Of a DNA stretch of 64,000 bases, positions 37,083 through 40,647 are shown piece by piece; position 1 is the first letter of the stretch; each line of letters opens with the position of its first letter. Position numbers and translations under genes: made by a program. The notes beneath the pieces were generated by a model. It had not been told where the DNA came from. It did not search any database and saw only the letters and a list, made by a program, of their open reading frames with translations. The DNA comes from Methanothrix harundinacea 6Ac (lineage in GTDB: Archaea; Halobacteriota; Methanosarcinia; Methanotrichales; Methanotrichaceae). Where the stretch lies: the NCBI RefSeq assembly GCF_000235565.1, contig NC_017527.1, positions 558,001-622,000 on the forward strand, written 5' to 3'.

Positions 37083-37631
37083 TTATCCGCTCCTCCGGAC
37101 CGACCTCTCCGCGAGGTCCTCCGCGAACTTGAAGTAGCCGCAGACCGGCCTTCCCAGGGGGACGATCCTCCCCCGGACTTCCCCCCCCTCCACCTCCAGC
37201 ACCGCCACCGCCGGCGGCGATAGGCGGGGCTCCGTGGGGCTTCCGGGGCAGATGAGGAGGCGGTCTCCCCCCTCCAGGAGGGGCCTGTGGAGGTGGCCGA
37301 AGACGAGGGCGTCCGCCTCCATCTCCCTCGCCAGGAGGTCGGCGCCCAGGAGGTCGGCGGAGAAGGAGGGCCGGTGGACGAGGCCGATCCTCACCTCCTC
37401 CACCTCCACCACTCTCCTCTGAGGAAGGAGGGCCGCCACCGCCGGATCGTCGGAGTTGCCCGAGACCGCCTCGAAGGGGACGAGGTCTCGGAAGGCCTCG
37501 TACGCCTCGAGGCTGACGAAGTCCCCGGCGTGGAGGACCAGGTCTGCCTCCCCCGAGAGGTCGATGAGGGGCTTGGGCACCCCCGCCCCCTCCTGGAGAT
37601 GGGTGTCGGAGATCGCCAGGATCTTCTTCAT
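37083..37631 (-). CDS. YfcE/MJ0936-type metallophosphoesterase
   Basis: Calcineurin-like phosphodiesterase of 182 residues. Metal motifs are visible in order: D8-T-H10 in AISDTHL, GDFVS, GNSDD (GNxD type), and GHLHRP; the motif that is often GH is LVH in GLVHRPSF. Substrates of the family include cyclic and model phosphodiesters. The start codon overlaps the stop of the upstream SIS gene by four bases (ATGA), so the two are translationally coupled. Confidence 0.88.
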   Translation of the reverse strand: MKKILAISDTHLQEGAGVPKPLIDLSGEADLVLHAGDFVSLEAYEAFRDLVPFEAVSGNSDDPAVAALLPQRRVVEVEEVRIGLVHRPSFSADLLGADLLAREMEADALVFGHLHRPLLEGGDRLLICPGSPTEPRLSPPAVAVLEVEGGEVRGRIVPLGRPVCGYFKFAEDLAERSVRRSG

Positions 37632-38818
37632 GCGTGGAGCCTTTTCATCCCCGCCTCTTCTATCCCCAGGAACTCGGCGCCGACGGCGACGACGCTGTTG
37701 GTGAAGATCGAGGCGTTGATCTCGAATATCGGGTACCTGTGCATGCTGTACTCCGAGACGAGCCAGCTCGTCGTCCTCCTGCTTCCGCAGATCTGGTCGA
37801 GGTACTCCTCGGAGACGGGTATGAAGGCGATATCCTCCTCCCTCCCCCTCTCGGCCATCAGCTCCACCAGCTCCGAGGTGGGGTTAGTCGTGATAGGAAG
37901 GACGTCCGCCCCCCTCTTGAAGGCGCTCCTCACCCCTTCGAGGCACTCGTAGGTGTTCCCGCTTCCGGTGATGGGGACGTAGACGTCCCCGATCTGAAAG
38001 CTGGGGGTGTTGAAGTCCCTCTCCCAGTAGCTGGTCTTGTTGAGGTGGGTGAACCTCATCTCGAAGGCCCGGGCCACCAGCCCCGACCTCCCCACGCCGC
38101 CGATGATGTACCTGCCGTTCCGGGGGAAGAGCCTCTCAAACCACCTGGTGAGCCTCCCCTCGTCCACCTTTGAGATGAGATGGCACTGGCCTGCAAAGTC
38201 CTTGATGGTGGAGAGATACCTCTGGCAGTCTCCGCTCTCCTCGCCTTCGATCCTGCTTTGGACCTCCTTGAAGACGGCGTTGAGGAAGGCGAGGACCTCC
38301 AGCTCGAACTCCGTCCCCATGGGAGAGAGCTTAGAGGTCCTGGTCAGGTCCAGGTCGTACTTCGTCTTCCCCTTGATCACCAGGACCGATCCGTTCTCGT
38401 ACCTCTCCACCAGCTGATGGGCGGTGCCATCCTCGTTGGCGGTGATCAGGGTGATATCCCCCCCCTGGTTTATTATGTCCTCGATGTACTTGTTCACTGC
38501 TGGGGTCTCCCCCGACCCCGAGACCGCGATCCCCAGGTTCTTCCTGGTGCTCCGGAAGTGCTTCTGGACCGGGTCCTCCATGGTGCAGGGGAAGGCGTTG
38601 AAGTGGTTGTAGAGGAGCTGGAGGAAGCTGTAGAGGGAGAGGGCGCTCCTCCCCGCCGCGAGGCCGTAGACGAAGTTCTTCTCGTCCTTTGACCTCAAAA
38701 ACGACGCCAGCGAATCGGCGAAGCCGTTTACGCTCTCCAGGTCCAGCCTCGTCAGCTTCTCGACGAAGGAGCACTGGAGGGCGGTGGCGTCTTTATACGT
38801 GTCGAAGAGACCTGCCAT
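37628..38818 (-). CDS. Tandem SIS-domain protein
   Basis: Sugar isomerase-type protein of 396 residues with two SIS domains. The first (about 35-190) has YGLAAGRSALSLYSFLQ and GIAVSGSGETPAVNKYI; the second (about 230-350) has YIIGGVGRSGLVARAFEMRF and VPITGSGNTYECLEGV. The SGSGxT phosphosugar-binding loop is present in both. Typical 6-phospho-3-hexuloisomerases are single-domain and half this length, so this is a fused or duplicated relative. It could act on hexulose or amino-sugar phosphates. Only a weak ribosome binding site precedes the ATG. Confidence 0.75.
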   Translation of the reverse strand: MAGLFDTYKDATALQCSFVEKLTRLDLESVNGFADSLASFLRSKDEKNFVYGLAAGRSALSLYSFLQLLYNHFNAFPCTMEDPVQKHFRSTRKNLGIAVSGSGETPAVNKYIEDIINQGGDITLITANEDGTAHQLVERYENGSVLVIKGKTKYDLDLTRTSKLSPMGTEFELEVLAFLNAVFKEVQSRIEGEESGDCQRYLSTIKDFAGQCHLISKVDEGRLTRWFERLFPRNGRYIIGGVGRSGLVARAFEMRFTHLNKTSYWERDFNTPSFQIGDVYVPITGSGNTYECLEGVRSAFKRGADVLPITTNPTSELVELMAERGREEDIAFIPVSEEYLDQICGSRRTTSWLVSEYSMHRYPIFEINASIFTNSVVAVGAEFLGIEEAGMKRLHA

Positions 38819-38870: not shown

Positions 38871-39941
38871 CTAGCTTATGATCTCCGAGAGCCTCCCCTG
38901 GTCCCTGGCGAGGCTGATCTCCTGGGCTATCCTCTTCCCGTTGGAGAGGTCCCTCTCGATCAGGTCGGAGTAGGGGGAGCCGCTGATGAAGACGTTCGTC
39001 CCGGCGACGATCCGGGCTGAGATCTCGAAGACCTTGAACTTCAGGTCGTCGGTGACGATCGTCTCCAGGCAGAAGGGGCCTATCATCCCTCCGAAGAGAT
39101 CTAAAGACGCCTCGACGACCCTCTCCCCCAGGTCGAAGGCCTTGGGGAGGAGGGACTCCCTCAGGACGAGGGGTATGTTCCCGGTGACGACGAAGCTTGG
39201 AAATATCCCCGCCGCCTCCAGCTCGTCCATGGAGCCGATCCTGAAGATCTCGTCGGCGTTGCTCTCGACCCGCCGGTCGATCCCCAGCATCTCCAGGGTC
39301 CCCTTGCTCAGGGTGTAGCCGTGGGACCGGATCGGCGAGTAGAAGTAGTGGATGTAGTACCGGGTTCCCAGGATGAACTCCTGGATGGTGTGCCGCTGGG
39401 TGGCGTCGACCTTGCTCAGGTATTCGCCCTTGCTCTTGGATATGAAGAAGCCCTTGCCGCCCTTGGCGCCGTGGTACTTGACGATGACGGGCCTGTCGAT
39501 CTCCTCGGGGGTCGCAAACCTCCGAGGGAGGTCGATCCCCGCCTTGAGGAGCCACTCCCGCTCCATCTCCCGGTCGCTCTCCCAGGCTAGGGACCTCCGG
39601 TTGCCGAAGGTCGGGACCGGCATCTCCTCGAACCTCTCCGTCCCCAGGTACTCCACCAGGGAGCCGTGGGGGACGACGATGGCGTTCTCCTCGACGAGCC
39701 GGTCGCTCTCCCCCAGGAGGGCCCCGTAGCTATCGAGGCTGAGGAAGGTGTCGGGCTTGGCCAGGGGGAAGGCGTCGTAGAACTTAGGAGGCCTGCCGAG
39801 GCATATTCCCAGGGTCCTGAACCCCTTCTGGCGAGCCCCATGAAATATCTGGAGGCTGCTATGAGAGCACACTGTAGCTATAGTTAGCTCTTTTGTGTCA
39901 TACTCATCCAAAATTTCTTGTATTTTGCTCTTATCTATCAT
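38871..39941 (-). CDS. purP: 5-formaminoimidazole-4-carboxamide ribonucleotide synthetase
   Basis: ATP-grasp ligase that formylates AICAR with formate in archaeal purine synthesis. The 356 residues begin MIDKSKIQEILDEYDTKELTIATVCSHSSLQIF, the PurP N-terminus; later motifs are PVIVKYHGAKGGKGFFI (ATP-grasp), IQEFILGTRYYIHYF, and GPFCLETIVTDDL...FEISARIVAGTNVF. The frame extends to 40316, but the ATG at 39941 matches family length. It is divergent from a HisB-like gene 163 bases away. Confidence 0.94.
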   Translation of the reverse strand: MIDKSKIQEILDEYDTKELTIATVCSHSSLQIFHGARQKGFRTLGICLGRPPKFYDAFPLAKPDTFLSLDSYGALLGESDRLVEENAIVVPHGSLVEYLGTERFEEMPVPTFGNRRSLAWESDREMEREWLLKAGIDLPRRFATPEEIDRPVIVKYHGAKGGKGFFISKSKGEYLSKVDATQRHTIQEFILGTRYYIHYFYSPIRSHGYTLSKGTLEMLGIDRRVESNADEIFRIGSMDELEAAGIFPSFVVTGNIPLVLRESLLPKAFDLGERVVEASLDLFGGMIGPFCLETIVTDDLKFKVFEISARIVAGTNVFISGSPYSDLIERDLSNGKRIAQEISLARDQGRLSEIIS

Positions 39942-40104: not shown

Positions 40105-40647
40105 ATGCGCGCTTCATTCAGGCGAGATACCGCGGAGACGAAGGTCGAGGTCTCCATCGACCTCGAGGGGTCGGGGTCGTCAGAGGTGGAGACGGGGGTC
40201 CGCCTCCTCGACGAGATCCTCAGGCTCCTGGCGAGGGGATCGGGGTTCGACCTCCGGGTGAGGGCCTCAGGGGACCTCCCGACAGGAGACCACCACACCG
40301 TCGAGGACGTCGCCATCTCCTTCGGCCAGGCCCTGGCCCAGGTGGCGGTGGCGGGGATCGGGAGCTCTTCCGTCCCCTCCGGCGAGGCCCTCGCCTTCGC
40401 CGCCGTCAGGTTCGGGGCAACGGGTTACCGGGAGGAGGTCGACATATCTCGGCGATCCCTGGAGGGGATGGACCTTGAGAACCTCGGCCACTTCATGAGA
40501 ACCCTCGCCTACAACGGCGGGCTCACCCTCCATCTGAGGGCCTCGGGAGGCGACGACTGGCAGAAGGTGGAGGCCCTCGCCACCGCCCTCGGTCGGGCCC
40601 TCAGGAGGGCGGTAGAGGACGGGTGCGGCGATCCGGGAAATAAATGA
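40105..40647 (+). CDS. HisB-like protein lacking most metal ligands
   Basis: Homologue of imidazoleglycerol-phosphate dehydratase, 180 residues. The N-terminal family pattern RRDTAETKVEVSIDLEGSG...TG is followed by LLDEIL where active enzymes have FLDHM (His to Glu at 37), and the following His is Gly45. The first HHxxED motif is intact (H63, H64, E67, D68), but the second (HHxxE in active enzymes) is WQKVE at 152-156, and the PMDEAL substrate loop is PSGEAL. With three of four metal-binding elements altered, dehydratase activity is unlikely. It may be a pseudoenzyme or have new chemistry. A genuine hisB is expected elsewhere if histidine is made. Confidence 0.75.
   Translation: MRASFRRDTAETKVEVSIDLEGSGSSEVETGVRLLDEILRLLARGSGFDLRVRASGDLPTGDHHTVEDVAISFGQALAQVAVAGIGSSSVPSGEALAFAAVRFGATGYREEVDISRRSLEGMDLENLGHFMRTLAYNGGLTLHLRASGGDDWQKVEALATALGRALRRAVEDGCGDPGNK

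Follow-up and report, generated by a model that had tools for sequence, protein, structure and literature searches.

Two IGP dehydratase (IGPD, HisB) paralogues were found in the genome of Methanothrix harundinacea 6Ac. One of them, here called beta, is encoded in the window, the stretch of 64,000 nucleotides that was analyzed. The other, alpha, adjoins hisA and is not linked to the beta gene. The active-site residues of IGPD were found to be divided between the two proteins. Judged from this division, alpha and beta very probably form an obligate alpha/beta IGPD in which each protein completes the metal site of the other. Neither protein should work alone, because each keeps the half of the metal site that the other has lost. 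In the literature searched, neither a heteromeric IGPD nor a duplication of the enzyme was found described for Methanothrix, and by that measure the pair would be a previously unreported form of a known enzyme.

The beta gene is an intact open reading frame of 180 codons, and its features are collected in Table 1. The protein matched the Pfam family for IGPD (PF00475) with 117 bits over the whole model, compared to a cut-off of 27, and its AF2 model (pLDDT 93.5) resembled solved IGPDs with a TM of 0.91, in agreement with the IGPD fold proposed in an earlier note on this DNA. The match of alpha to PF00475 was 157 bits (cut-off 27), and its AF2 model had a pLDDT of 91.5. The PDB structures closest to the two models were IGPDs only. 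Scores against the NCBIfam HisB equivalogs were below the cut-offs for both proteins, namely 135.5 against 269 for beta and 189.6 against 231 for alpha. The replacements listed in the earlier note were all present in beta: FLDHM to LLDEIL (H47 to Glu), a second His to Gly (H55), PMDEAL to PSGEAL (D108 to Gly) and the second HHxxE to WQKVE (DHHxxE to DWQKVE, with Trp-Gln for H169-H170). Its statement that nothing but the first HHxVED motif remains was correct for HHTVED, including the ligand-binding D78 (34/35 beta sequences), but overlooked the catalytic E21 and the Mn2 ligand H145. Both are kept in 35/35 beta sequences, and their retention is what explains the protein. The C-terminal STKG loop, required for IGPD catalysis, is absent from beta and present in all 36 alpha sequences. 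The gene was also correctly described as intact and maintained; the dN/dS ratio is about 0.2, and orthologues carry losses at identical positions, which excludes a sequencing accident. A leaderless promoter with the putative TATA-like element is a plausible reading of the sequence upstream of beta.

Table 1. Features of the beta gene, its neighbours and the alpha gene. Positions are those of the window unless a locus is named; E21, H47 and the like are numbered as in Arabidopsis IGPD2.
Feature	Position	Strand	Basis or remark
Candidate IGPD beta subunit gene, 180 aa	40105..40647	+	ORF; PF00475; predicted fold
Putative TATA-like TTAAAATAT, about 25 bases 5' of the start codon	40076..40084	+	Sequence
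Glu11 = E21 (catalytic acid/base), kept in beta	40135..40137	+	35/35 beta, 3/36 alpha
Glu37 replaces H47 (Mn1 ligand), lost in beta	40213..40215	+	H47 in 0/35 beta, 36/36 alpha
HHTVED = H73, H74, E77, D78, kept in beta	40291..40308	+	H73, H74, E77 in 35/35 beta; H73, H74 in 0/36 alpha
Gly93 replaces D108 (proton relay), lost in beta	40381..40383	+	D108 in 0/35 beta, 36/36 alpha
His129 = H145 (Mn2 ligand), kept in beta	40489..40491	+	35/35 beta, 0/36 alpha
Trp-Gln replaces H169-H170 (Mn1, Mn2 ligands), lost in beta	40558..40563	+	H169 in 1/34, H170 in 0/34 beta; both in 36/36 alpha
purP (FAICAR synthetase), divergent neighbour of beta	38871..39941	-	NF009781 over cut-off
396-aa SIS-domain protein, two HxlB-like stretches	37628-38818	-	Score below NCBIfam cut-off; next to purP in many relatives
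Alpha IGPD gene, adjoins hisA	L001:1444-2010	-	Only other IGPD in genome

Conservation of the active-site residues was followed in an alignment of 36 alpha and 35 beta sequences from the Methanotrichaceae (family f1), 24 canonical class members and Arabidopsis IGPD2, the numbering of which is used throughout (PMC4509728). The canonical relatives retained the full residue set. All beta sequences kept E21, H73, H74, E77 and H145, and H47, D108 and R99 were present in none of them; H169 was found once in 34 sequences and H170 not at all (0/34). All alpha sequences kept H47, R99, D108, R121, H169, H170, E173, K177 and STKG, and H73, H74 and H145 were missing throughout, with E21 left in 3/36. At the level of motifs, alpha retains FLDHM, PMDEAL, NDHHQAE and STKGVL, as well as the phosphate-binding arginines and lysine and the C-loop, and has AQRSRAL in place of DHHxxED. 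Its lack of HHxxED, H145 and E21 is complementary to the losses of beta. A complete set of eight Mn ligands and two D/NxHHxxE motifs in one chain was found in neither protein. Beta has four of the ligands and alpha another four. Exceptions to the partition were E173, an imperfect separator that is also Glu in 23/34 beta sequences, and position 77, where 10/36 alpha sequences have a Glu beside a deletion, an assignment that depends on the alignment. H55, which makes a water-mediated phosphate contact, was lost from both proteins. No new invariant His or Glu able to replace a lost ligand was found in the alpha or beta sequences. Alpha and beta each formed one clade with an SH-aLRT of 100. The stems of both clades are long, and a sister relationship of the two is therefore not proven. 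Within the genus, dN/dS was about 0.20-0.21 for alpha and beta alike. Co-divergence of the two proteins beyond the species tree was weak in a mirror-tree comparison (partial r 0.26-0.35) and was set aside as support for the pairing.

The division agrees with the way in which IGPD active sites are built. One di-Mn cluster is made from two subunits, with arginines from a third (PMC10978614), and the metal sites lie near molecular two-fold axes (PMC6029752). In Arabidopsis IGPD2, Mn1 is bound by H47, H74, H169 and E173, and Mn2 by H73, E77, H145 and H170 (PMC4509728). In the Acanthamoeba structure 6FWH, the ligands of Mn1 are H67 of chain A' and H40, H162 and E166 of chain A; those of Mn2 are H66, E70 and H138 of chain A' and H163 of chain A. 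D101 of chain A holds a water, and the phosphonate is held by K170 of chain A and R92, R114, S191 and K193 of chain C (PMC6029752). In Arabidopsis numbering, H47, D108, H169, H170, E173 and K177 come from chain A, R99, R121, S199 and K201 from chain C, and H73, H74, E77 and H145 from chain A'. The alpha set equals that of chains A and C and the beta set that of chain A', with essentially no exception among the 36 alpha and 35 beta sequences. Twelve positions (eight A/C, four A') are both assigned to a chain in the literature and represented in the alignment, and all twelve sorted by chain between the paralogues. The chance of complete sorting is 1 in C(12,4)=495, assuming independent positions.

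E21 was considered separately. In the internal repeat of IGPD, E21 is equivalent to D108; in either half, the second strand starts two residues after it. In the beta model the two places are residues 11 and 93, and the strands start at 13 and 95. H47 and H145 are likewise equivalent, as are the two HHxxE motifs. Because E21 and D108 are equivalent in the repeat and D108 is on chain A, the repeat symmetry predicts E21 on chain A'. The paralogues obey this symmetry, with E21 in beta and D108 in alpha. However, Fig. 2 of PMC4509728 lists 'Glu21A' beside 'Glu173A' in its legend, which would put E21 on the chain matched by alpha, where it is lost, and counts against the model, although a prime may have been dropped in the legend. 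No other statement on the chain of E21 was found in the literature searched, and it is not given in PMC6029752. The predicted place of E21 on chain A' is the main point of doubt in the heteromer model.

The two genes probably go back to a duplication of an ancestral hisB that preceded the divergence of the known Methanotrichaceae, after which alpha would have stayed by hisA and beta would have moved, often to the side of purP. In a normal IGPD, each subunit contributes some residues to its own site and a second set to that of its neighbour across the two-fold axis. Alpha has kept only the own-site set (H47, D108, H169, H170, E173 and K177) together with the third-chain phosphate ligands (R99, R121 and the STKG C-loop), and beta the across-axis set only (E21, H73, H74, E77 and H145). 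Physical association of alpha with beta in the right order would give one complete di-Mn site and leave the reciprocal site nearly without ligands. The pair would then have IGPD activity and catalyze step 6 of histidine synthesis.

A particle of 24 subunits is typical for all known IGPDs (PMC6029752), and according to work cited in PMC10978614, removal of Mn left inactive trimers in other species. In the particle proposed here, alpha3 and beta3 trimers would alternate at the eight corners of the 24-mer, so that all metal sites would be alpha/beta sites. The stoichiometry is probably (alpha3)4(beta3)4, in which 12 sites would be live and 12 dead. In an octahedral 24-mer, like three-fold partners together with unlike edge two-fold partners were possible in 48/48 generator choices. 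An arrangement with like four-fold-related and unlike two-fold-related subunits was rejected, since only some generator choices (12/36) permit it. Provided that chains A and C come from one trimer, the alternation would also account for the retention of R99, R121 and the C-loop by alpha. The fuller picture is evenly balanced in our judgement: a natural tetrahedral hetero-24-mer, derived from an octahedral homo-oligomeric metalloenzyme by complementary loss, in which exactly half of the 24 shared di-manganese sites are left and no site can be formed by either subunit alone. In this picture, histidine synthesis may be coupled to purine synthesis via AICAR through the adjacency of beta and purP.

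The M. harundinacea genome of 2,571,034 bases (two contigs, with a chromosome of 2,559,043) contains exactly two IGPD genes, beta and alpha, and no complete IGPD was found in genomes carrying the pair. For this reason the suggestion that beta is a pseudoenzyme or regulator beside a canonical HisB was dropped. A second hisB does exist, as the earlier note had thought possible, but it is not canonical: it lacks H73, H74, E77, H145 and E21, exactly the residues kept by beta, and there is thus no normal HisB to regulate. The note had also held that its reading would fail if no other hisB existed. Another gene exists and is incomplete as well, and this comparison was therefore indecisive. The new chemistry offered as a further option in the note is less satisfactory than a reading in which each protein holds one half of an ordinary IGPD active site.

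The reading of the note in the form in which beta is dead and regulates or stabilizes an alpha that catalyzes alone, perhaps with altered metal binding, is considered unlikely. Alpha is at the ancestral hisA-hisB locus, has more motifs and higher family scores than beta, and dead activating paralogues are known from trypanosomatid deoxyhypusine synthase (PMC3663545). Against this, alpha lacks H73, H74 and H145 in 36/36 sequences and E21 in 33/36, Mn2 would be left with one of four ligands in alpha alone, where no new conserved candidate ligand was seen, and beta keeps its ligands in 35/35 sequences although a mere scaffold would not need them. It is more improbable still that neither protein is an IGPD any longer, both having been recruited elsewhere while another enzyme performs step 6. 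Scores below all NCBIfam HisB equivalog cut-offs would fit such a loss of function; however, the residues retained are precisely the catalytic residues of IGPD, split in the manner of chains A/C and A', alpha and hisA are linked in most genomes, and other pathway steps are present (hisG, hisI, hisA, hisF and hisD) with no further IGPD found. Degenerating genes or an artefact of annotation or sequencing would explain the many missing family motifs, but this reading, the least probable of all, is already contradicted by intact open reading frames in dozens of independent genomes, finished ones included, by a dN/dS of about 0.2 and by the invariant residues. DSMZ medium 334 is not known to contain amino acids. 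Since M. thermoacetophila has been cultured on DSMZ medium 334 with acetate (PMC10470525), a working IGPD is expected in Methanothrix, with alpha and beta as the only candidates.

The archaeal heteromeric tRNA-splicing endonuclease is a homo-oligomer divided into two specialized paralogous subunits. The alpha/beta IGPD is similar in being an archaeal homo-oligomer split into paralogous subunits, but in the endonuclease these have catalytic and structural roles and share no bimetal site. In the trypanosomatid deoxyhypusine synthase, an ancestral homo-oligomer has likewise given way to an obligate complex of two paralogues, both of them impaired, as proposed here for IGPD. In that enzyme, which belongs to a different family, one subunit is impaired, the other is dead and the activation is called allosteric (PMC3663545), whereas each paralogue appears to give half of the ligands of every live site in the alpha/beta IGPD. 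Canonical IGPD/HisB proteins (PF00475; Arabidopsis IGPD2 4MU3/4MU4, Acanthamoeba 6FWH, Medicago HISN5) have a like fold with a TM of about 0.9; alpha and beta together match all of their metal ligands and catalytic residues, and the linkage of alpha to hisA is shared as well. They assemble as homo-24-mers, and each of their chains carries both D/NxHHxxE motifs (PMC6029752, PMC4509728), in contrast to the one motif and half site per chain found here. If the model is true, the pair is a clean natural case of duplication followed by complementary loss inside one shared active site, and the split can be compared with solved structures one residue at a time. The model makes the sharp prediction that neither gene alone complements and both together do. 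The annotation of alpha and beta each as HisB would be corrected, with the warning that loss of motifs in one paralogue need not indicate a pseudoenzyme, and the question is raised of what half-occupancy and two-gene control would mean for Methanothrix.

In a search of 238 genomes of the class, two IGPDs were found in 44 of the 50 Methanotrichaceae genomes, and a single IGPD was the rule outside the family. The two matches in each of three outside genomes (G086, G148, G161) were partial and covered different parts of one profile. In a sample of 393 genomes of the phylum, two IGPDs were found in Methanotrichaceae genomes only. One paralogue only was found in 6/50 genomes of the family. Three of these (G017, G227, G233) lack alpha and also a close hisA, the usual neighbour of alpha, and an assembly gap is likely there. 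Two others (G014, G237) are incomplete genomes. The last, G036, is a 99% complete draft in 200 contigs with alpha present and beta not found; another gene lies upstream of its purP (L226), so that a contig end there does not explain the missing beta, which may be an assembly gap or a real loss. Among 80 loci kept from a GTDB-wide scan, beta-type proteins occurred only in records titled Methanothrix, Methanosaeta, Methanotrichaceae or Methanocrinis, or in broadly titled or unplaced bins. The other loci had the full canonical set at 13 positions, save for Glu at H145 in L146 and L153. Acquisition of beta from outside the family was rejected, since none of the 80 loci showed a beta-type protein outside Methanotrichaceae-like records.

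In about 22 of the 35 beta loci, purP was the neighbour of beta. AICAR, the substrate of the purP enzyme, arises as a side product of the histidine pathway. With beta and purP divergent, one control region may serve both histidine synthesis and the purine synthesis that consumes AICAR; the neighbourhood is conserved in many relatives but not in all. As a link through AICAR, this adjacency is suggestive only. HisF was a second histidine enzyme found duplicated in this genome, and complementary loss was seen in HisB only. The HisF-like proteins have lengths of 270 and 272 aa (L213:141-953 and L214:147-965, both on the minus strand) and are encoded by apparently intact genes at C2:2092493 and C2:2456132.

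Two kinds of interrupted IGPD genes were observed elsewhere in the class. In a genome of family f3 (G161:C2:1469172-1469734), the gene is split into two pieces that overlap and contain TAG and TGA, due to a frameshift or an assembly error. In two genomes of family f2 (L025:1447-2025 and L026:1405-1983), the single IGPD gene carries a TAG in frame, at a position common to both and in the context PMDDSCA-TAG-VAID, and the ligands are otherwise canonical. This TAG may be read as pyrrolysine.
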